A stretch of DNA of 64,000 nt, taken from the NCBI RefSeq assembly GCF_001531445.1, contig NZ_LQYA01000004.1, positions 62,001 to 126,000 of the forward strand, given 5' to 3'. Origin of the DNA: Sporosarcina koreensis (lineage in GTDB: Bacteria; Bacillota; Bacilli; Bacillales_A; Planococcaceae). How positions within the stretch are numbered: position 1 is the stretch's first letter; each line of letters starts with the position of its first letter. A program made the translations under genes and the position numbers. Positions 6,285 to 64,000 of the stretch are shown in pieces. The notes beneath the pieces are model-generated. The model searched no databases. It was given only the letters and a program-made list of their open reading frames with translations, and was not told where the DNA came from.

Positions 6285-7799
6285 TTAGATACGTTTCTCC
6301 GTAACGGGGCGCATTGTGCCGTGCTGCATTAGATTCATATGCCATGAAAACGCCTTTTCAAGTACATGCGGTGTGTGGCCGCCTCTTTCCAGCGCCTCGT
6401 AGTAGTATTCCCATAGCTGTCCACGGTACATTGGGTGTGCGCAATTGGCGATAATCAGGCCAACGCGTTCCCTTGGTGCAAGCCCCCGTAAATCCGCGTA
6501 CCCATGCTCTGTCACGATGACATCGACATCATGCTCCGTATGATCCACATGCGACACGAATGGCACGATACTTGAAATATCGCCGTTTTTGGCAATCGAT
6601 TTCGTGACAAAGATGGCAAGTCTTGCATTCCTGGCAAAATCACCGGAGCCGCCGATGCCATTCATCATCTTCGTACCTGTAACATGCGTCGAATTGACGT
6701 TGCCATAAATGTCGAGTTCAAGCGCTGTGTTGATGGAAATCAAACCGAGTCGGCGGATGATTTCCGGATGATTCGAGATTTCCTGAGGGCGCATGATTAG
6801 CTTCTCCCGATATTTGTCCAAATTCCCAAATACCTTTTCCATCTTCTCCTGCGACAATGTGATCGATGCACACGAAGCGGTGCGGATTTTGCCCGCATCG
6901 ATCAAATCGAACACCGCGTCCTGCAGCACCTCGGAATACACTTCCAAATCTTCGAACTCCGATTCCAGCAAACCATGCAGCACCGCATTTGCTTGGGAGC
7001 CGATTCCCGATTGAAGAGGAGCTAGCCGCTTCGTCAATCGACCCGCTTCCACTTCCGAACGCAGGAATGACAGCAGATGTTCAGCCATGACTTCGGTGTC
7101 GTGGTCAGGCTGGGTGATCGTAGACGCGGAATCCGGTTGATTCGTGAAAACGATTCCCTTCACCCGATCCACATCAATCGGGATGCCGATTGTTCCAATC
7201 CGGTCATTCACTTTTGTCAGAGGAATCGGATTCCGTTCCCCTTGTTTGCCCGGATCATATAAATCATGGATGCCTTCCCATGCAGTTGACTGTGCTGTGT
7301 TTATTTCAATAATGATTGATTTTGCATGCTTTGCAAACGATAACGAGTTGCCGACGGAAGTCGTAGGAATGATCATTCCATCCTCCGTCACTGAAATCGC
7401 TTCCAAAATTGCAAAATCGATCGGTTCAGTCACATTTGAGCGAATCCACTCCGCTGTATGGGAAAGATGATGGTCGACAAAAAGAAGTTCCCCATTGTTA
7501 ATGCCATTGCGCATCGCCTTTTCCGCTTGGAATGGCAGCCTCTTTTTCACAATGCCCGCTTCCGCGAATAACTTATCGATATCCGAGCCGAGAGATGCCC
7601 CCGTGAACACATTCACTTTGAACTTTTCTGTTTCAGCGCGCTTCACCAAAGCCATTGGAACCGCTTTCGCGTCGCCTGCACGTGTGAACCCGCTAAGCCC
7701 CAATGTCATTCCGTCTTTGATCCAAGAAGCAGCCTCTTTAGCCGAAACGACCAAGTCTTTCAATTTTTCAATTCTGATACGATCCATATGGTTACCCAT
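6285..7799 (-). CDS. Succinyl-CoA:acetate (acetyl-CoA hydrolase-like) CoA-transferase
   Basis: A 504-residue class I CoA-transferase of the Cat1/ScpC/AarC group. FTRAGDAKAVPMAL near the start is the family N-terminal motif, QSGIGSQANAVLHGL lies mid-protein, YSEVLQD carries the glutamate that is catalytic in characterised relatives, and GIGGSGDFARNA is the conserved CoA-binding glycine loop. The enzyme exchanges CoA between succinate, acetate or propionate, linking acetate overflow to the TCA cycle. The ATG at 7799 has AAGGGGCG upstream; a second ATG four codons later is possible. A LytTR regulator gene lies 144 bp upstream on the same strand and may be co-transcribed. Confidence 0.85.
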   Translation of the reverse strand: MGNHMDRIRIEKLKDLVVSAKEAASWIKDGMTLGLSGFTRAGDAKAVPMALVKRAETEKFKVNVFTGASLGSDIDKLFAEAGIVKKRLPFQAEKAMRNGINNGELLFVDHHLSHTAEWIRSNVTEPIDFAILEAISVTEDGMIIPTTSVGNSLSFAKHAKSIIIEINTAQSTAWEGIHDLYDPGKQGERNPIPLTKVNDRIGTIGIPIDVDRVKGIVFTNQPDSASTITQPDHDTEVMAEHLLSFLRSEVEAGRLTKRLAPLQSGIGSQANAVLHGLLESEFEDLEVYSEVLQDAVFDLIDAGKIRTASCASITLSQEKMEKVFGNLDKYREKLIMRPQEISNHPEIIRRLGLISINTALELDIYGNVNSTHVTGTKMMNGIGGSGDFARNARLAIFVTKSIAKNGDISSIVPFVSHVDHTEHDVDVIVTEHGYADLRGLAPRERVGLIIANCAHPMYRGQLWEYYYEALERGGHTPHVLEKAFSWHMNLMQHGTMRPVTEKRI

Positions 7800-55427: not shown

Positions 55428-56597
55428 CTATTTCAGTTTAGTTGCATCCACAACGTACAACGAATAAAAATCGGTGCCTTCCACGTTAACAACTAATGAT
55501 CCTTCAGGCGTAAACCTTGGCTTCACAAGGCGTTCCTGTATATGATCCAACACCGGCAACGCATGTGCTTGATTATTTTCGATCCTATAAAGTTTGATAG
55601 TACGGGAATCCTTCACCGGGACATCGAGCGCAAGAATGTCTTCGAACACGGCATACGCAAAAAACTTTGGCGTCTCCACTATGTAGAACTGTCCATCCGT
55701 CAAGTCTACATAGCCCAAGACCGGCCCCGTATCCCCTTCATTAAAAAGCTCGGCAAACACCTTATTTCCTGAAATGGAGAGATTAATTGCGTTTTCGTAT
55801 GGAAATGAGTACTCGCCTATTTGACGCTGCGATTTAAGATCATGCACTGTAAATTTAAATTGTGAAGAATCGGATTCTCCGTAATCTGTGATGATGAATT
55901 TCCCTGTTGCTCCCCTTGTATATTCTAATTTTAACCTTTGCGAATGCAAATCAATTAGCTGGGTCTGCTCAAGCGTCTTCAAGTCCAGTTGTGTGAACCA
56001 TATATTCCCCTGACTTACAGATGTATAGTTCAGCTGATCCCCATCAATCTGCATACCATGCAATTCATCGGGAATGTTTCGGACTTCCCCGTTCAACCGA
56101 TTCAATATTGAATAACCCTCTATATCATCCTGCTTCCAAACGATCCAACGCTCATTTGCCGCGACATTATATCCCGATATATTCGCATCCTCTTCTCGTT
56201 CTACTAGGATCTCTTTTATTTTAGATTCCGTATTATACGCATAGATTCTATACCCATCCGTGAAAATCATTTCCTTCGTTTTATCCACATAAATCGCAGT
56301 AATCAATGTAGCAAGATTCTCGCCAAGTATGGAAACTTTATGGACAACTTCGGAAGGCATTGATTCTACAATTGCCTTCTCTCCCATCTCATGCTGGATA
56401 TACGGCACCGCAAGGAATCCGGCAATCCCGACAACGGCAACCGCGGATATTAGCGGCTTCAAGGCGGGCTTCCTCGTAGGCGATCCTTTTTCGAGCCGGC
56501 GATGCGCTTCCGCCACAATCGCCCTCTTCCGCTCATCCCTTAACCTCACCTGTTCAGGAATCGATTGGTCCAAGCTTTTTCGTATGTGCTCATGCAT
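55428..56597 (-). CDS. Membrane protein with beta-propeller-like domain, probable anti-sigma (cassette 3)
   Basis: About 389 residues. A basic cytoplasmic N-terminus of some 50 residues precedes one membrane helix (PLISAVAVVGIAGFLAVPYI), followed by a 310-residue extracytoplasmic region of repeated beta motifs (FTDGYRIYAYNTESK, WIVWKQDDIEGYSILN, YTSVSQGNIWFTQLDL, GYVDLTDGQFYIV) that looks like a propeller. The start at 56597 follows GGAGGGG by seven bases and overlaps the sigma stop. Position and topology argue for an anti-sigma or sensor, though no zinc-binding anti-sigma motif is seen. Confidence 0.7.
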   Translation of the reverse strand: MHEHIRKSLDQSIPEQVRLRDERKRAIVAEAHRRLEKGSPTRKPALKPLISAVAVVGIAGFLAVPYIQHEMGEKAIVESMPSEVVHKVSILGENLATLITAIYVDKTKEMIFTDGYRIYAYNTESKIKEILVEREEDANISGYNVAANERWIVWKQDDIEGYSILNRLNGEVRNIPDELHGMQIDGDQLNYTSVSQGNIWFTQLDLKTLEQTQLIDLHSQRLKLEYTRGATGKFIITDYGESDSSQFKFTVHDLKSQRQIGEYSFPYENAINLSISGNKVFAELFNEGDTGPVLGYVDLTDGQFYIVETPKFFAYAVFEDILALDVPVKDSRTIKLYRIENNQAHALPVLDHIQERLVKPRFTPEGSLVVNVEGTDFYSLYVVDATKLK

Positions 56598-57111
56598 AAT
56601 CATTCCCCTCCTCGAAGGCTATGCGCGCCAGTTTTCTTCCTCTCGCAAGCCTTGTTTTGACAGTATTCACTGGACAGTCCAACACATTTGCAATTTCTGC
56701 GACGGACAGTTCGGAATAATAATGAAGCCAAATGACTTCCCGATACTTCAGCGGCAGCCCCTCAATCAGTTTCGCAACATGATCATCTGATTCCTTTTGG
56801 ATTATCTCGCATTCAGGCGTATCCTTGTTGATTAGCAAATGACCGAATAGATTTGAGATTTCCATTTTCCTATAGGCCCAGCTTTTGAAATAGTTATGGC
56901 ACTCGTTGATGGCAACCCTGTATAAATATGTTTTAATGGACGAGCGGCCCTCGAATTTATCGAGATTCAAATAATAGCGGATGAACACTTCCTGAACGAT
57001 ATCTTCCGCCTTCTTTTCATCTTTCACAATGGCGTATGTAAGCCGCATCAAGTAATCCCCATAGGAATTCATGGCAGTTAAAAGTAATCGGTCCCGTTCC
57101 TGTTTCTCCAC
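56590..57111 (-). CDS. ECF RNA polymerase sigma factor (cassette 3)
   Basis: 173 residues from a GTG seven bases after GGAGG. Sigma-2: DEKKAEDIVQEVFIRYYLNLDKFEGRSSIKTYLYRVAINECHNYFKS, closely like the SigW/SigM/SigV group; sigma-4: LPLKYREVIWLHYYSELSVAEIANVLDCPVNTVKTRLARGR. A TGAAAC...GTCTAA promoter upstream suggests positive autoregulation. First gene of a two-gene unit. Confidence 0.88.
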   Translation of the reverse strand: MEKQERDRLLLTAMNSYGDYLMRLTYAIVKDEKKAEDIVQEVFIRYYLNLDKFEGRSSIKTYLYRVAINECHNYFKSWAYRKMEISNLFGHLLINKDTPECEIIQKESDDHVAKLIEGLPLKYREVIWLHYYSELSVAEIANVLDCPVNTVKTRLARGRKLARIAFEEGNDYA

Positions 57112-57134
57112 CCCTCCGCCTCCCTTCCCTACTT

Positions 57135-57165
57135 GTTAGACAAAGCAAATGATGAAACGGTTTCA
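57135..57165 (-). promoter_or_regulatory. Candidate ECF-type autoregulated promoter
   Basis: On the minus strand TGAAAC (-35) is followed after 17-18 bp by TGTCTAA, close to the CGTC-type -10 box of extracytoplasmic-function promoters. The predicted leader is only about 15 bases. Confidence 0.5.
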
Positions 57166-57298
57166 TTTTCTGTCATCTTTCATTCTAACGTTAAGATTTC
57201 AATGGATATTTTTAACTTTAACATGTTTGTTTGGGCAGCAGACACCCGGGTATGAATAAAAGGATCATCTCTTTCGTTATGTTAGGCAGGTGTTCTTC

Positions 57299-57895
57299 AT
57301 GTTCGGACTTTCTGATTTAGCTTCGCTGATCATCTCCGTCTTCATCATTCTGCCAGTCGTCACATTTCTAAGGGAATCCGGTTACCTTATCGCGAGTGTT
57401 ATTTTTGGCGTCAAAAATCCAAGGCTGACGATCGGATCGGGTCCCCGTTTTAAAAAAATCGGCATATTTGATATACGGAAATATTATCATTTGTATAGCT
57501 GGTTTTCTTTTGATTCTCTGAAAAGGGATGGAAAGTTTGCGTATATATGCATTTACGCGGGCCCCATCCTCATCAATTTGGTTGTGGCGTTTGCCATTAA
57601 TGCGTTACTGGCGAATGGTTTCCTTGAGGACTACAGGATCTTCTGGGAACGCTTCATTTTTTATGTATTCTACTATGTACTTTTGGATATTGTCCCGATG
57701 TTCACCCTGAACGGCAAGCCGAACAACGGGATGATCTTATACGAAATGCTGCGCTATGGGAAACGTATCGATTATAATAACGATCCTTTCATTCCCGCTA
57801 CGACTGATGTGGAAGAAGAGGTTCAAGAGCAAATGGAAAAAATCGAGGAAATGATTGAGGAAGAAAATAAGAGTGACAGCCACCCTCGCTCGTAG
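57299..57895 (+). CDS. Membrane protein resembling a degenerate M50 site-2 protease
   Basis: 198 residues with four or so membrane helices. FLRESGYLIASVIFGVKNPRLTIGSGPRFKKIGIF aligns in plan with the HExGH helix and following beta segment of M50 proteases, but the metal-binding HExxH is RESGY here. YAGPILINLVVAF corresponds to the GPxxN helix, and DIVPMFTLNGKPNNGMILYEMLRYG to the NxxPxxxLDG helix. All catalytic ligands are replaced, so it should be inactive as a protease. The acidic tail (EEEVQEQMEKIEEMIEEE) is coiled-coil-like. ATG at 57299 after GGCAGGTG. Confidence 0.65.
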   Translation: MFGLSDLASLIISVFIILPVVTFLRESGYLIASVIFGVKNPRLTIGSGPRFKKIGIFDIRKYYHLYSWFSFDSLKRDGKFAYICIYAGPILINLVVAFAINALLANGFLEDYRIFWERFIFYVFYYVLLDIVPMFTLNGKPNNGMILYEMLRYGKRIDYNNDPFIPATTDVEEEVQEQMEKIEEMIEEENKSDSHPRS

Positions 57896-57911
57896 GTTGA
57901 CTGTCACTCTT
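57869..57911. terminator. Bidirectional terminator overlapping the coding end
   Basis: AAGAGTGACAG pairs with CTGTCACTCTT. The left arm is inside the last codons of the M50-like gene. Confidence 0.8.
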
Positions 57912-57912
57912 A

Positions 57913-58224
57913 TTAGTCCTCGTCTTTTTCAGCTAATTTCCGTTCCCTTGTGAAGTCCGGTTCATCGCCAAATTCTGTATTGAAGTTAGGATTAGAGATT
58001 TGCCGGCGGGTCGTTACGACTTCCCTGTCTTCATCCGGACTGAATAAAATTGCCAAACAGATTAGACCGCTAATCGCTACAAGGGCATAAACCACCCTTG
58101 CCATAAATGCATCCTGTCCGCCAAATAAAGAGGCAACCAAGTCAAACTGGAAAAAAGCAATCAGGCCCCAATTCAATGCTCCAATGATAACCAATGCCAA
58201 TGCAATCCGTCGAACTGCTCCCAT
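57913..58224 (-). CDS. DUF378 membrane protein (YuzA-like)
   Basis: 103 residues. RRIALALVIIGALNWGLIAFFQFDLVASLFGG is the DUF378 signature, followed by a second helix (VYALVAISGLICLAILF) and a hydrophilic tail of about 40 residues that is longer than in most members. Function unknown. GAGGAGGAG precedes the ATG. Monocistronic. Confidence 0.88.
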   Translation of the reverse strand: MGAVRRIALALVIIGALNWGLIAFFQFDLVASLFGGQDAFMARVVYALVAISGLICLAILFSPDEDREVVTTRRQISNPNFNTEFGDEPDFTRERKLAEKDED

Positions 58225-58369
58225 TTCATACTCCTCCTCATGTTAACAATTACTATTATCTTTTGCTAAATGAGGATTTTCATACATCCCAGAAACATTT
58301 TTGCTTCTTCAGATGAATAAAACTTTCGTATGGACTATCCGTACATGAAAGAATAAAGGAGTGTGTAAC

Positions 58370-58858
58370 GTGAACAATAAGCCTGTCTTGGATATCCCGA
58401 AAACATTATTCGAAAAATTGCTGGATAGTATTACAGCAATCGTCTATTTGGCCGGCATCGTCTACACAATCGTCATTTGGAGCCAGCTTCCTGATCAAGT
58501 GCCTGCGCATTACAACGCCGCTGGTGACGTGAATCGATGGGGATCCAAATGGGAGCTCATCCTGTTGCCTGTCATCGCTGCCCTCCTGGCTGTTTTCATG
58601 TCCTTTCTGGAAAAGCATCCCGAGTGGCATAATTATATGAAGCTGAATGAGAACAACATCGAATTCCAATATAAAAATTCACGGATGCTATTGAATGTCC
58701 TAAAAAATGAATGCGTCCTCCTATTCGTCTTTCTTACGTACAGTACAGAGCAAGTCGCATTAGGGAACATCGACTCACTAGGCATTGTCTTCCTACCTGT
58801 TTTTCTTATTATCATTTTCGGGTCGATGGCATTCTTCATTGCCCGTTCATTAAAATAA
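58370..58858 (+). CDS. DUF1648 membrane protein
   Basis: 162 residues with four membrane helices. IVIWSQLPDQVPAHYNAAGDVNRWGSKWELILLPVIAALL is the DUF1648 signature, as in SdpI-type immunity proteins, though only the N-terminal domain of that family is present. The GTG at 58370 lies eight bases after AAAGGAG. Function in this setting unknown. A terminator follows. Confidence 0.83.
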   Translation: MNNKPVLDIPKTLFEKLLDSITAIVYLAGIVYTIVIWSQLPDQVPAHYNAAGDVNRWGSKWELILLPVIAALLAVFMSFLEKHPEWHNYMKLNENNIEFQYKNSRMLLNVLKNECVLLFVFLTYSTEQVALGNIDSLGIVFLPVFLIIIFGSMAFFIARSLK

Positions 58859-58936
58859 ATATTGTCTTTCCATAGTTTTTTAGCAAAGGGCATATCAATT
58901 TAAAATTGACTTTCTCATGTTGATACAGAAATCCTA

Positions 58937-58959
58937 CCAAGCATAACGCTTGGTTTTTT
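58937..58959 (+). terminator. Terminator of the DUF1648 gene
   Basis: CCAAGC pairs with GCTTGG around a five-base loop and T6 follows. Confidence 0.85.
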
Positions 58960-59067
58960 CGTTACTTTTTGATAAAATTGAGAGGTGAGCATTTTTATAA
59001 GAAGTTTGATTAAAAATATGCCTAAGGGCTGAAGGAGTGAGCGATTCACAATAAGGAGCTGGAATCT

Positions 59068-60474
59068 ATGACAACAGAACAAACTACTTTGCAACAAGAC
59101 ACTGGTGTTGAGGTCGTCCGGGATTATTCTTTGGACCGTGTACCTCGTGAGGATCGAACGAAAGGCTGGCTTAGCATTACCAACATTACATTTGGCATCG
59201 CTACAGCTATTTTTTACTTCCAGATGGGAAGCGTGATGGCTCTCCAATTCGGGGCTCCGAACGCCCTCATTTCCGCTGGCTACGCAATCATCGTAGCAGG
59301 CTTGCTCGGTACAGTCATCGTCTATTTATCGGCCAAGTCGGGAATGAATGTGAACCTATTATCCCGGGGCGGCGGCTTCGGCTATATAGGAGCATCGTTG
59401 ACTTCTCTCATTTACGCATCGAATTTCATTATGTATTGTGCGTTTGAAGGCCTGATTCTCATATCGGCCGTCCACCATTTTCTCCCTTCCTTTCCGAAAT
59501 GGGTTTTAATCCTCGTATTTGGACTCATTGTTATTCCTCTTAATTGGTTTGGTATTCAACAACTGGACAAGCTGCAAAAATGGTCATTACCGATTTTTCT
59601 TCTTTTCTTGATTACTGCAATTGTTGTTTCCTTCATCAAACCTGCTATTTATACGGGTCCTGTTTTCTCTTATATGCCGGAAGGAGTACAGCTTGGCGGG
59701 ACTGCGCTGCTGTTCTGCATCGGTATGCATAATGGGATTATGGGCTTGACCGCTCTTCTCGCTTCTGATTATGCCCGTTTTTTACGCCCTAAAGATATCA
59801 AAATCGGATCTTTAGCAATCGGGTTCATTCCTCAAATTTTTTGTTACGGCGTTATGGGAGGATTAGGTATCTGGTTCGGTGTCCGTTACTTGGAATCGGA
59901 TCCAGGCGTTTATATTGTACTGCTGCTCGGAATCGGCGGTGCGTTATTTACCATGTTGACGCAATTGCGTATTAATGTCACAAATATTTATAGTAGTTCA
60001 CTCTCCTTATCAAACTTCTTTGAAAATATCTTCCGTTTCACCCCCGGCCGACGGTTTTGGGTCGTTGTCTCCGCGTTGACGGCGATTGCTCTAATGCTTG
60101 GCGGCATTGTAGACCACCTCACTACGGTCATGACATTCCAAGGCGTCTTCCTGTTTGCATGGGCGTCCATCTTAGTGACGGATGCGCTCGTCGTCAAAAA
60201 ATGGTTGAAGATTGGACCGAATTATTATGTCGCGACACAAGATTATTTATATAAATGGAATCCTGTCGGTGTTGTTTCCCTCCTGGTTTCAAGTGTAATC
60301 GGCACAATTGCCGCACTTGGCTATATGGGAGTATTCCTCCAATCGACAGCTGCGTTTTTCGCTGCTGTGCTCGCCGCTATTTTGACGGTCATCATGGCGG
60401 TACTGACAAAAGGGAAATATTATTTACTGCAGGAACCAACTCATATTGTCGAAGAAGACAAACTGAAACGATGA
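59068..60474 (+). CDS. NCS1-family (CodB-like) purine/cytosine permease
   Basis: 468 residues, 12 membrane helices. RTKGWLSITNITFGIATAIFYFQMGSVMALQFG is the NCS1 N-terminal motif; GGGFGYIGASLTSLIYASNFIMYCAFEG is TM3, and SDYARFLRP the conserved loop after TM6. Members import cytosine, purines, allantoin, thiamine or hydantoins; the CodB subgroup fits best but no catabolic gene lies beside it. GGAG precedes the ATG by eight bases. Own terminator. Confidence 0.85.
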   Translation: MTTEQTTLQQDTGVEVVRDYSLDRVPREDRTKGWLSITNITFGIATAIFYFQMGSVMALQFGAPNALISAGYAIIVAGLLGTVIVYLSAKSGMNVNLLSRGGGFGYIGASLTSLIYASNFIMYCAFEGLILISAVHHFLPSFPKWVLILVFGLIVIPLNWFGIQQLDKLQKWSLPIFLLFLITAIVVSFIKPAIYTGPVFSYMPEGVQLGGTALLFCIGMHNGIMGLTALLASDYARFLRPKDIKIGSLAIGFIPQIFCYGVMGGLGIWFGVRYLESDPGVYIVLLLGIGGALFTMLTQLRINVTNIYSSSLSLSNFFENIFRFTPGRRFWVVVSALTAIALMLGGIVDHLTTVMTFQGVFLFAWASILVTDALVVKKWLKIGPNYYVATQDYLYKWNPVGVVSLLVSSVIGTIAALGYMGVFLQSTAAFFAAVLAAILTVIMAVLTKGKYYLLQEPTHIVEEDKLKR

Positions 60475-60484
60475 ATGATAAAAG

Positions 60485-60517
60485 CCATGCCCGATTGCCA
60501 ACGGGCATGGTTTTTTT
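60485..60517 (+). terminator. Terminator of the NCS1 permease gene
   Basis: CCATGCCC pairs perfectly with GGGCATGG and T7 follows. Confidence 0.9.
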
Positions 60518-60545
60518 ATGAAATTCTGATTCATCATAAATTCCG

Positions 60546-60580
60546 GAATGGCAATGAATGTTGGGAAATGATCGATTAAC
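60546..60580. repeat. Dispersed GAAATGATCGAT array, locus 5 (two units)
   Basis: GGAATGGCAATGAATGTTGG is followed by GAAATGATCGATTA, a 20-bp step. It matches loci 1 and 3 in order and phase. The rest of the gap to 60742 holds only broken frames. Confidence 0.7.
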
Positions 60581-60742
60581 ATAACGCCTTATCAAGCTAG
60601 AAAGAGGTTGATGGCATCCCCCTGCTCTCCTTATGGATCGGTTGGAGCGAATCAGCATTCATCAGGATGACGGATGAAGAGTTGCATACAGAGTATTAGA
60701 GGCGTATGGGGGAATAAATCTTTGGAAAGTAGAAAAACGTGC

Positions 60743-60768
60743 AAAAACAGCCAATTCAACATTGGCTG
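60743..60768 (-). terminator. Terminator of the small secreted peptide gene
   Basis: On the minus strand CAGCCAAT pairs perfectly with ATTGGCTG across a five-base loop and TTTTT follows. Confidence 0.8.
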
Positions 60769-60798
60769 CGCTTGTCCAAGGTAATAATCAGCTGTTCA

Positions 60799-60930
60799 TC
60801 ATGGATCTACATGGCAAAAATTTTCCCACGGTTTGCAGGGACCTATCCAATCAGCTGAAGCAGTGCCTACACCTGACAAAGTAACTGAAAGAATCAATGC
60901 AGAAAAAGTAAGAAAAAATTTCTTTTTCAA
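60799..60930 (-). CDS. 43-residue secreted peptide precursor with two cysteines
   Basis: I translated this by hand from a TTG at 60930. The ribosome site AAAGGAGGTG lies four bases before it. The first 26 residues are a Sec signal peptide: MKKKF, a hydrophobic stretch (LTFSALILSVTLSGVG), and cleavage after TASA. The mature part is DWIGPCKPWENFCHVDP, 17 residues with two cysteines seven apart that could form one disulfide. A TATAAT box at 60961-60966 and a terminator at 60743-60768 make it a complete monocistronic unit, although the -35 box is weak (TTTCAT). No homologue is known to me. Candidate secreted peptide signal or antimicrobial; function not shown. Confidence 0.7.
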   Translation of the reverse strand: MKKKFFLTFSALILSVTLSGVGTASADWIGPCKPWENFCHVDP

Positions 60931-61098
60931 ATTAGCACCTCCTTTTAAAATATTGTAATAATTATAACATCAGTTGTTTGAGTGATGAAAGGAGACTAAG
61001 GTACGGAAAAATCTTTATAATTCGACAAAATTCTATCATATTTTCAAAGTAATAAAAAAACAAATGGGCAAAATGTCTTTTCAACGGGGAGGGGAACT

Positions 61099-61332
61099 AT
61101 GAGCCCTAGAGAGAATTGCCATAATTGTGGTTTAGAAAATGGTAAGAAAGAGAGTAATTCAATCATTTTGAGCCGCGAATACGGCAATGAAAAATGCTAT
61201 TACTGTCACGATTGCAAAACAAGTTTAGGTACGCATAATAACAGCAAACAGCTTGACATAATACGTAACAAAAGATATTCAGATTTTACGAAAAGTGCGC
61301 TACAATATTTTCGATATACCTTTGGTCAGTAG
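61099..61332 (+). CDS. Small zinc-ribbon-like protein
   Basis: 77 residues, starting after GGGGAGGGG. Cysteines lie as CHNC (7 and 10) and CYYCHDC (33, 36 and 39), a pattern suited to one zinc-binding site. The rest is basic and helical (RNKRYSDFTKSALQYFRYTFG). I do not recognise a named family. The upstream gap (60967-61098) shows the divergent peptide promoter and AT-rich sequence only. Confidence 0.65.
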   Translation: MSPRENCHNCGLENGKKESNSIILSREYGNEKCYYCHDCKTSLGTHNNSKQLDIIRNKRYSDFTKSALQYFRYTFGQ

Positions 61333-61335
61333 ATG

Positions 61336-61379
61336 AAAAAAGCCATTCCTGTTATAAAAATAACAGGAATGACTCTTTC
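61336..61379. terminator. Bidirectional terminator between zinc-ribbon and metQ genes
   Basis: AGCCATTCCTGTTAT pairs with ATAACAGGAATGACT around four A. T6 follows on the minus strand, so it mainly ends the metNIQ transcript. Confidence 0.85.
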
Positions 61380-61382
61380 ACC

Positions 61383-62210
61383 TTATTCAAACGCTGGAAT
61401 TGCGGTTTCGTCATAGTTCTCTTCTAAAAACTTACGTACTTCCGGACTTGTCATTGCATCAGCCAACTTTTGAATCGGCTCCCAGTCCTTGTTGTCCTCG
61501 CGTGCTACTAATGTGATTGCAAAATCATTTTCGACGCCTTCTGTAAGCAATGCGTCGCTTTTCGGTGTCAATCCGAGCGGAGCCGCGTAAGCAGGTGTCA
61601 TGACAACTGCATCCGCATCATCGTACATGCGCGCAAGCATGAGCAAATCGACTTCCTCGAACTTAAAGTTTTTCGGATTGTCGACGATATCCGCTTGCGT
61701 ATAATACGTGTCCGTCTTTTCCCCTAATGTAATGATTTCGTGTTGTGCAAGCAATGACAACGAACGGTCAATATTGGAAACGTCGTTCGCCATTGCGATG
61801 ACAGCACCTTCCGGCAGTTCTTCCATAGAGCTGAAGTCTTTCGAATAAACACCGTAATTGGCAAAATAGATCGGTGTGATCGGAACTAAGTTTGCGTCAT
61901 TATTACGGTTGAATTCCTCCATGTACGGCACGTGCTGGAAGAAGTTTGCATCTACTTCTTTCGCTGTAAGCGCACTGTTCGGCTGCACATTGTCGCCTAA
62001 TACAACAATTTCAAGATCGATGCCTTCCTCCGCAAGCTTCGGTTTCACAAGCTCAAGGATTTCCGTCATCGGTGGAATCAAAGAAGCGACTTTCATCGTC
62101 ACTGCTTCGTCTTTCTCTTGTACGTTAGCAGGGGTATCCGCTGCTTTATCTTTGCCGCAGCCTGCCAATAAAACCATCAGCAATGCCGTCAGCAACAGTA
62201 GTTTTCTCAT
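61383..62210 (-). CDS. metQ: Methionine ABC transporter substrate-binding lipoprotein MetQ
   Basis: 275 residues. Lipoprotein signal MRKLLLLTALLMVLLAGC (LAGC box), then the NlpA/MetQ fold: LIPPMTEILELVKPKLAEEGIDLEIVVLGDNVQPNSALTAKEVDANFFQHVPYM is the family core, and FANYGVYSKDFSSMEELPEGAVIAMANDVSN follows. Binds methionine outside the membrane. Third gene of the metNIQ operon. Confidence 0.9.
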   Translation of the reverse strand: MRKLLLLTALLMVLLAGCGKDKAADTPANVQEKDEAVTMKVASLIPPMTEILELVKPKLAEEGIDLEIVVLGDNVQPNSALTAKEVDANFFQHVPYMEEFNRNNDANLVPITPIYFANYGVYSKDFSSMEELPEGAVIAMANDVSNIDRSLSLLAQHEIITLGEKTDTYYTQADIVDNPKNFKFEEVDLLMLARMYDDADAVVMTPAYAAPLGLTPKSDALLTEGVENDFAITLVAREDNKDWEPIQKLADAMTSPEVRKFLEENYDETAIPAFE

Positions 62211-62224
62211 TTTGTTTCCTCCTG

Positions 62225-62887
62225 TTATCGTTTATCTATCATTCTTGATACAGTCGTCCCGGTAAATTGGATGAACTGCACCAGTATGACCATTATGATA
62301 ATCATGTACATCATCAAATCCGTCTTGAATTGCTGGTAACCATACCGGATTGCAAAGTCGCCGATACCGCCGCCTCCAACAACACCCATGATCGTCGAAT
62401 AGGAAATGAAACTGATGATCGACGTCGTTAACCCTAACACGAGTCCGGAGCGGGCTTCGACATATAGGAATTTAAAGATGACTTGCCTGACCGAAGCCCC
62501 CATAGCAATCGCCGCCTCTATTACACCTTTTGGCACGTCGAGCAACGATTGTTCAACGAGCCGGGAATAATGCGCGATGGCGATGATGGATAATGGCACG
62601 GTTGCAGCTGTCGTCCCAATGGCAGTTCCGATGAGCATCCTTGTGAACGGGATGAGGAAGACGACCAATAATAGGAATGGGAACGAACGGATGATATTTA
62701 CGAATAAATTCAAAACCGAAAAGACGATACGGTTCTCATATATTTGCCCTTTCCTGCACAAAAAGAGCCATGTGCCAACTGGAAGTCCGATTATTACGGC
62801 CGCAGCAATCGAAACGCCGACCATGATGAAAGTTTCCTCGATCGAACTCAAGATCTCGGCTTGATATTGAAGTAAAATATCAGGCAT
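62225..62887 (-). CDS. metI: Methionine ABC transporter permease MetI
   Basis: 220 residues with five membrane helices. NIIRSFPFLLLVVFLIPFTRMLIGTAIGTTAATVPLSIIAIAHYSRLVEQSLLDVPKGVIEAAIAMGAS contains the ABC permease EAA loop with EAAxxMG. I use the ATG at 62887, overlapping the ATPase stop by 8 bp; a GTG at 62899 sits in the presumed ribosome site. Translationally coupled to metN. Confidence 0.88.
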   Translation of the reverse strand: MPDILLQYQAEILSSIEETFIMVGVSIAAAVIIGLPVGTWLFLCRKGQIYENRIVFSVLNLFVNIIRSFPFLLLVVFLIPFTRMLIGTAIGTTAATVPLSIIAIAHYSRLVEQSLLDVPKGVIEAAIAMGASVRQVIFKFLYVEARSGLVLGLTTSIISFISYSTIMGVVGGGGIGDFAIRYGYQQFKTDLMMYMIIIMVILVQFIQFTGTTVSRMIDKR

Positions 62888-63629
62888 GACCCATTTCACC
62901 GTCCTTTGTTAGCTGTTCCACAAAGAAACTAGGGCTGTTCTCAATGATGCCAATCCCTTTCGGCTCAATGGAAACCGTCTCGAAGACTTGTCCTTCGTTC
63001 ATAACAGTGACGCGGCTGCAAATGCTTTTGATCACATCCATCTCGTGACTGACAATGACAATCGTAACTCCGAAGGTCCGGTTAATGTCTTGCAATACAG
63101 TTAGAAGCTCAGCAGACGTATTCGGGTCGAGTGAAGATGTCGGTTCATCACATAGCAAAACTTGCGGATTGTTTGCCAATGCCCTCGCGATCGCCACACG
63201 CTGCTTTTGTCCGCCGCTCAATTGCGCTGGGTATTTATCCATGAAACTCGAAAGGCCGACAAACTGAAGACACTCCTTCACACGTTCACTGCGCCCTTTC
63301 CTCGGAAACTTCGCCAGTTTCAATGAAACAGCAACGTTTTCAAACACCGTTTTATTCGCGACCAAGTTAAAATGCTGGAAGATCATACCGATCGATTTCC
63401 TAGCTTGCCGAAGTTGTTTGCCGTTCAAATTTGTCAACGTTTGACCATTGACCTCCACTTCTCCTTCATCCGGGACTTCCAATAAATTCATAAGCCGCAA
63501 CAGCGTCGACTTTCCAGCCCCGCTTGCCCCGATGATGCCGTGGATTTCGCCTTTTTTTATCGATAAGGAGACTGATTGAATAGCCTGAAAACGCAAGAAA
63601 CTTTTACTCACATTATGTAATGTAATCAT
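62880..63629 (-). CDS. metN: Methionine ABC transporter ATP-binding protein MetN (no NIL domain)
   Basis: 249 residues. Walker A GASGAGKST, signature [15 protein letters not shown], Walker B VLLCDEPTSSLDP and H-loop VSHEMDVI. The N-terminal two thirds match MetN; but typical MetN is about 340 residues with a C-terminal NIL domain that senses intracellular methionine. Here the chain ends soon after the ATPase core (IENSPSFFVEQLTKDGEMGHA), so that feedback site is absent. No S-box or T-box leader is seen. First gene of the operon, behind a good promoter. Confidence 0.85.
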   Translation of the reverse strand: MITLHNVSKSFLRFQAIQSVSLSIKKGEIHGIIGASGAGKSTLLRLMNLLEVPDEGEVEVNGQTLTNLNGKQLRQARKSIGMIFQHFNLVANKTVFENVAVSLKLAKFPRKGRSERVKECLQFVGLSSFMDKYPAQLSGGQKQRVAIARALANNPQVLLCDEPTSSLDPNTSAELLTVLQDINRTFGVTIVIVSHEMDVIKSICSRVTVMNEGQVFETVSIEPKGIGIIENSPSFFVEQLTKDGEMGHA

Positions 63630-63678
63630 AAAAAAATCCCCTTTCTATCATTTGAAGGGTGATTGCGACGCTATTTAT

Positions 63679-63707
63679 TATAACCCAATCTGACTAGGTT
63701 GTCATTT
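63679..63707 (-). promoter_or_regulatory. Sigma-A promoter of metNIQ
   Basis: On the minus strand ATGACA and TATAAT are separated by 17 bp. The leader to the metN ATG is about 45 bases, too short for an S-box or T-box. Confidence 0.65.
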
Positions 63708-63796
63708 TAGGATATTTTTAACAATTCGAAAGTGAAACCTTTTTTGGTTCCATTCGACAAATGACACATAAAGAGCAAAGACTTCAGGAGGTCATC

Positions 63797-64000
63797 ATGA
63801 GAAAAATCAGCATTGTATTGGTAACAGTCGTTTTAATGATTATGGTCGGTTGTACAAAACAATCCGATAGCGGCAATAATGAAACAACAAACGCGTCATT
63901 CGATTCAATCGTAAACGCTATTAAAGAACAAATGGCCAAGGATTTAAAAGAAGCTGGGATCGAAGAGGAAGTGCTAGTGGACGGCAACATTATGAACTAC
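63797..64000 (+). CDS. Lipoprotein, N-terminal part only
   Basis: 68 codons to the window edge with no stop. The ATG at 63797 follows AGGAGG by five bases. MRKISIVLVTVVLMIMVGC is a lipoprotein signal (MVGC box), followed by a polar linker (TKQSDSGNNETTN) and the beginning of a helical domain (FDSIVNAIKEQMAKDLKEAG). Too little is present to name the family. Confidence 0.7.
   Translation, partial: MRKISIVLVTVVLMIMVGCTKQSDSGNNETTNASFDSIVNAIKEQMAKDLKEAGIEEEVLVDGNIMNY

Follow-up and report, generated by a model that had tools for sequence, protein, structure and literature searches.

A short secreted two-cysteine peptide gene of Sporosarcina koreensis belongs to an apparently unnamed family of putative signalling-type propeptides

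The open reading frame on the minus strand at 60799..60930 of the window (the whole 64,000-nucleotide stretch of DNA analysed here, from a host genome of 4.34 Mb) is confirmed by sequence comparison as a real gene with homologues. Its 43-residue product is one of what is apparently a new, unnamed peptide family of secreted propeptides, to judge by their sequences of a signalling type. We propose, at a probability of roughly 0.45, that the gene specifies an orphan secreted peptide signal timed by Spo0A, resembling Phr in plan without a Rap partner and perhaps re-imported by the oligopeptide permease Opp. The preliminary description, which had presented the frame as a gene without stating its strand, is partly supported overall. 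The frame is real, the ribosome site, TTG start, TATAAT box and terminator that it claimed are all present, and the secretion leader, two-cysteine tail and terminator are borne out by conservation in other species. Its remark that no homologue was known has been overtaken by the relatives found both in S. luteola and beyond the genus.

The precursor consists of MKKKFFLTFSALILSVTLSGVGTASA followed by DWIGPCKPWENFCHVDP, read from TTG to a TGA stop, and the plus strand across 60799-60930 is broken by stops. The leader, or predicted signal-peptide part, covers 26 codons (60853..60930) and ends in TASA, matching the pattern A/V-x-A. The tail DWIGPCKPWENFCHVDP covers 17 codons (60802..60852), with two cysteines and four residues past the last one. 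The remaining elements lie on the minus strand as well. A strong ribosome site, AAGGAGGTG (60936..60944), is placed 5 nt ahead of the TTG. A TATAAT sequence (60961..60966), the putative -10 element, lies at -36 from the start, without a -35 partner among the promoters listed by a consensus scan, and a second -10-like element, TACAAT, is found at -27. Farther upstream, 61 nt from the TATAAT, is TGTCGAA (61021..61027), the core of a Spo0A box, beginning at -97 relative to the start codon; it is accompanied by TAAAGAT (61011..61017), which may represent the degenerate second half of a tandem box with 10-bp phasing. Behind the gene, a terminator hairpin formed by CAGCCAAT and ATTGGCTG with an 8-bp stem and followed by TTTTT (60740..60768) starts 31 nt past the stop and is absent from the consensus-scan listing.

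The copy in S. luteola (genome G011) has 46 codons and shares 31 identical positions (72%) with the window peptide, including both cysteines. The two DNA sequences are similar from the upstream box through the terminator and more weakly beyond, and the neighbouring genes are not the same. Differences at codon positions 1, 2 and 3 number 9, 2 and 16, respectively, with a dN/dS of 0.27. The 72% homologue together with the bias of changes towards third positions makes the frame more than a product of chance. S. luteola carries an exact TATAAT at -60, in addition to a TACAAT at the aligned place.

Searches with a final profile model located 18 loci in 17 of the 261 genomes of the host's family (E<1e-9), 14 of these places being rows of the model itself. 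An earlier six-sequence model (A3) identified ten short-ORF places beyond its own rows, with E values from 4.4e-21 to 2.4e-5, all ten being among the final 18; a model built from only two sequences had led to G229 (E 4.4e-13). Of the 68 genomes of the host genus, two have a convincing copy. The genus-wide search (E<=1) gave matches in 49 of these 68, only two being accepted, and the two-sequence model (E<=0.1) gave matches in 54 of the 261; in both cases most of the weak matches were leaders of long open frames. The same was true of most weak matches from the further profile searches (A3, class-wide and final model), which were discarded, as were the tail-only matches L004 and L019, which sit inside longer genes. 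Beyond the host's family, five loci with short open frames were inspected from a class-wide sample of 398 genomes, and among them only G567 had secreted ORFs led by a ribosome site.

The set compared below comprises 18 ORFs of the host's family plus four of G567. G193 is part of the profile count and stands outside the 18, and its second gene is without a clear ribosome site or ATG; G134 was included despite a weak profile match (E 4.6e-4), and has neither the upstream box nor the hairpin described below. Three members, G125, G200 and G220, were admitted although the two-sequence model matched them at chance level (E 0.0503, 0.0369 and 0.0054), on the basis of a short secreted ORF led by a ribosome site, 13 + 8 loci having been inspected. 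They later gained support from the box and terminator in G200 and G220 and from close relatives of G125 adjoining Opp genes. Five of the 23 listed ORFs, namely the four of G567 and G220b, were left out of the 18, all being without box and AGCCAA hairpin. For G134 and G567, the resemblance to the family may be due to convergence.

The window peptide matched no Pfam family at E<=1 and had no relative in the plasmid and phage collections (matches at E 0.7-8); G142 and G567a likewise had no match in the phage collection, and G095 none in the plasmid collection. No model of Pfam, NCBIfam or PHROGs exceeded its cut-off for the family members scanned. Titles and abstract openings, mostly of papers outside subscription, hold no account of such peptides.

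All 22 ORFs encode an n-h-c leader closed by A/V-x-A, by a simple pattern rather than SignalP, as expected of secreted peptides. The tails of 12-24 residues have a net charge of -2 to +2, and 17 of the 18 contain exactly two cysteines, G220 having none. The loop between the cysteines varies from 3 to 6 residues, and exactly four residues follow the last cysteine in 15 of the 17 two-cysteine ORFs (three in G136 and G134), giving ends such as CHVDP, CHIPF, CVIRP, CKDRP, CLERT and CYDND; the ends of G193 (CLDRP) and G135 (CLNTN) fit the pattern too. The four ORFs of G567, arranged as two tandem pairs, have 4, 3, 4 and 3 residues past the last cysteine, one of them carrying four cysteines; two genes are also present in G110 and in G193. 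Because the four-residue end is fixed despite the variable loop, the C-terminus looks to be the anchored part of the molecule across the family. Two more short secreted ORFs with two cysteines adjoin family members, one at L064:9447-9608 (minus strand, tail ending YCIKGKGCAH) and one at L142:4721-4867 (plus strand, tail ending ICTNNGHCYYP), and possibly constitute a related group.

Comparison of closely related members reveals how leaders and tails have changed. In G095, G103 and G112 the tails are identical (15/15 residues) and the leaders are 2-9 nonsynonymous changes apart. The reverse is seen in G118 and G125, which have identical leaders and 6.5 nonsynonymous changes in the tail, and in G567a and G567c, where the leader has none and the tail 12.2, together with 6.8 synonymous changes. 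Between G111 and G118 the leader has 3 changes and the tail 7, and in G567b and G567d both parts are altered (9.3 and 26 nonsynonymous changes in leader and tail). The kept-leader pattern is therefore not clean in every pair, given G567b/d and the synonymous tail changes in G567a/c. Tails that are either kept or switched are more in line with a sequence that is recognised than with a peptide acting generally on membranes, though the counts are small.

Spo0A binds DNA in tandem mode. Nine of the 18 ORFs (9 of 23 counting the five set aside) have TGTCGAA on the coding strand, starting between -95 and -103 relative to the start codon, and contain no other copy in the 260 nt examined. Shuffled sequences gave a mean of 0.005 at that position and at most 1 in 400, a figure that overstates the certainty, since related sequences (G000/G011, G110a/b) are not independent. 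Near matches are present in G094 (TGTCAAA at -95) and G139 (TGTCATA at -93), and seven ORFs have neither form; the exact box is thus missing in nine of the 18, including seven of the nine Opp-adjacent genes, one of which is G094. A poorer second copy, at best TGTAGAA, follows ten bases on from TGTCGAA. Five ORFs, namely those of the window, G200, G142, G110b and, with its near match, G094, have an exact TATAAT at -36/-37, at a distance of 58-61 nt from the box; in G136 the distance is 71 nt. TGTCGAA is described as the core of the Spo0A box in PMC3485338, and with this 0A box in its promoter region the window gene bears the mark of the Spo0A regulon. An exact tandem, TGTCGAA-n3-TGACGAA, is found ahead of the AbrB gene in the window genome, and ahead of spo0A there is a copy with one mismatch; genome-wide, the tandem pattern is only mildly enriched (13 sites compared with 8 in a reversed control), another exact site being L219. 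A second perfect TTTGTCGAAT is located at 63752-63761 on the minus strand; the metN-like ATP-binding gene (62880-63629, minus) begins 123 nt downstream of it.

The 64-kb window contains the hairpin core AGCCAA..TTGGCT a single time (0.01 expected). Across the family it lies directly behind seven of the 18 ORFs, which represent four genera, and in 317 kb covering the 18 flanking loci it is found seven times, all explained by those seven ORFs. The hairpin alone is unspecific, with 19 viral-contig stretches carrying it and a family member within 450 nt upstream in one.

The genes sit in different surroundings. In the window they are a permease gene and a metNIQ-like operon. In one genus (g8), to which the Opp neighbourhood is limited, all eight member genomes found carry the gene after oppF, facing a second Opp-type operon, the Opp assignment resting on Pfam for one OppF and one OppA and on likeness for the others. 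OppF is present in 32 of 32 g8 genomes, and the peptide at 7 of 30 examined loci, G110 being the eighth genome; the other 23 loci have no intact copy within 1.3 kb. Downstream of oppF at L168 lies what is left of a peptide leader, matching the G094 member at 76% across 17 aa; on sequence grounds this is a sign of gene loss in the genus. The family also extends to mobile DNA. The G142 member has an identical counterpart in the IMG/VR contig UViG_2541046999_000001, and a peptide in the IMG/VR contig UViG_2744054657_000002 shares 97% identity with G567a. Both contigs are probably proviruses, because their peptide genes lie close to phage terminase genes on the opposite strand. Directly after the phage-contig peptide gene at L231, and also counter to the direction of the terminase, is a DUF3231 gene (6432-6938, plus strand). 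No receptor, kinase, immunity, export or modification gene was recognised as recurring beside the loci, mostly by eye and with Pfam for a few ORFs.

Among described systems, Phr peptides offer the closest comparison in plan (Pfam PF11131, NCBIfam TIGR04429). A Phr precursor is about 40 residues long, with a Sec leader and a short functional C-terminus, and the active pheromone is a C-terminal penta- or hexapeptide imported by Opp. Unlike Phr, the family has two conserved cysteines, as well as a Spo0A-type box in half its members. None of the family members scanned exceeded the cut-off of a Phr precursor model, the leader of G142 reaching 24.6 bits against PhrC_PhrF (PF11131; cut-off 25) and the best Phr_nterm match, in G229, 13.4 of 25 bits. 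Neither the ORF lists of the flanks nor the window at 56000-64000 contained a recognisable rap gene. RapH_N (PF18801) was found in 0 of 13 host genomes, the control matching in B. subtilis and M. jannaschii. A receptor with RNPP_C (PF18768) was found in three of the 13 (G229, G200 and G136, and not G000 or G011), and 0 of 14 control genomes passed the cut-off. These receptor tests cover RapH_N and RNPP_C. The family is accordingly not classed as Phr, given the lack of Rap, the scores below cut-off and the two cysteines. Rap-Phr systems borne by phages are described in PMC11343458. The same contrast extends to other RRNPP(A) systems, in that no receptor was recognised beside a family gene. The propeptides of those systems (PapR, NprX, AimP) are short exported precursors, some of them phage-borne. 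PMC10075063 presents RRNPP-type systems as two adjacent genes, for propeptide and receptor.

The mechanism we favour, an orphan peptide signal, would start from a self-contained one-gene cassette consisting of a Spo0A-type tandem box, promoter, ribosome site, Sec-exported precursor and terminator. Spo0A would bind some 60 nt ahead of the -10 element and so tie expression to starvation or sporulation. Signal peptidase I would remove the leader to release a peptide of 12-24 residues, with one disulfide ring and a four-residue C-terminal tail, which could act as a sequence-specific signal either outside the cell or after re-import. Uptake might occur through the oligopeptide permease, as for Phr pentapeptides, with a receptor other than Rap. 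The grounds for suggesting Opp uptake are the fixed C-terminus and, in one genus, a location flanked by two Opp-type operons, and the absence of RapH_N from all 13 hosts and of RNPP_C from 10 of 13, including the window genome, points to a receptor of another kind. Weighing against a signal are the lack of a receptor beside the loci, the box missing in half of the members, the Opp context in a single genus, and G220 without cysteines. A broader version is doubtful: these genes may represent a so far unnamed orphan class of disulfide-ring pheromones of spore-forming Planococcaceae-type bacteria. In such a class the ring would vary and the four-residue C-terminal tail stay fixed, Spo0A would time the peptides and Opp take them up, and the cassettes of ~300 bp would also spread with prophages, giving a lysogen a possible influence on its host's sporulation decision. 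If true, sporulators outside Bacillus would own a cell-to-cell peptide tied to the sporulation regulator and independent of Rap, and relatives of such a peptide would travel in phages. The peptide is short enough for synthesis, making the claim directly testable, and the anchored C-terminus and box together provide a search rule for further genes of the type, which length-limited annotation may overlook.

We consider it unlikely that the peptide is instead a small secreted antimicrobial or cannibalism factor, timed by Spo0A, closed by a disulfide, diversified in an arms race and moved by phages or insertion. SDP and SKF of Bacillus subtilis are Spo0A-linked secreted peptides with cysteines, encoded in operons with maturation and immunity genes. 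The family resembles them in its Spo0A-type box, predicted secretion and two cysteines, and the diversified tails in some pairs, the relatives in phage contigs and the patchy distribution (2/68 genus genomes) would fit such a role as well. However, the window gene is a single gene with its own terminator, without maturation and immunity genes in an operon; none was recognised elsewhere, and no immunity, export or modification gene beside the loci. The tails, at their length and charge, are unlike the usual cationic kind, and an identical tail is kept in three genomes. Tail evolution and placement lean towards a signal.

A separate question, compatible with any function, is whether the box is the site of another regulator with no role in sporulation, to which we assign a low probability. 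Its second half-site is degenerate, the tandem pattern is only mildly enriched, and, at ~70 nt ahead of the presumed start, the box is not placed as a textbook Spo0A site. Nevertheless, the core equals the Spo0A box, is found ahead of abrB and spo0A in the same genome, and no regulator gene was recognised beside the cassette.

That the peptide inhibits or binds an enzyme outside the cell, such as a protease, with the disulfide loop as contact surface, is quite improbable. It would be in keeping with the often proline-bearing loop, the retention of both cysteines in 17/18 host-family ORFs and a likeness to the short loops of plant trypsin inhibitors, but a fixed C-terminus with a loop of variable length is unexpected for an active loop, and no shared neighbour enzyme was recognised. 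A type I toxin that acts on the membrane and is paired with an antisense RNA is very unlikely: toxins of this prophage kind are short hydrophobic ORFs, and the family has a single hydrophobic stretch, small size and relatives in phage contigs, but also the cleavage-site pattern in 22/22 ORFs and a conserved two-cysteine tail, with no plus-strand promoter at 60516-60799 listed by the consensus scan. That the frame arose by chance and has no function is hardly credible, since its absence from all four relatives that keep the flanking genes is set against a reading frame, control region and terminator conserved in another species and other genera.

The preliminary description had expected the frame to persist in relatives with the same flanking genes, and there it failed. 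Among 24 other genomes of the genus with metQ, the permease gene is within 1.5 kb in four; none of these four has the peptide gene, and none of the 24 has it near metQ. This result is offset by the nature of the stretch, which is extra DNA in the window genome, the frame being kept at other sites in S. luteola and other genera. The gap between permease and metQ is 54-263 nt in the four relatives, and the window has ~0.8 kb of extra DNA between the two terminators (approximately 60517..61334), which could reflect insertion in the window genome or loss in the relatives. No clear terminal repeats bound the block, a 17-nt direct repeat (88%) being part of the two flanking terminators. In three of the relatives (L177, L178 and L179) the permease-metQ gap is filled by degenerate repeats around CGATA. 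The same extra DNA of the window harbours a 77-aa zinc-ribbon-like ORF (61099-61332, plus strand) with a weak, below-cut-off match to DUF3268; phage records that match this ORF number 50, of which 46 are from Enterococcus phages, with 32.5% identity at best (E 3e-4).
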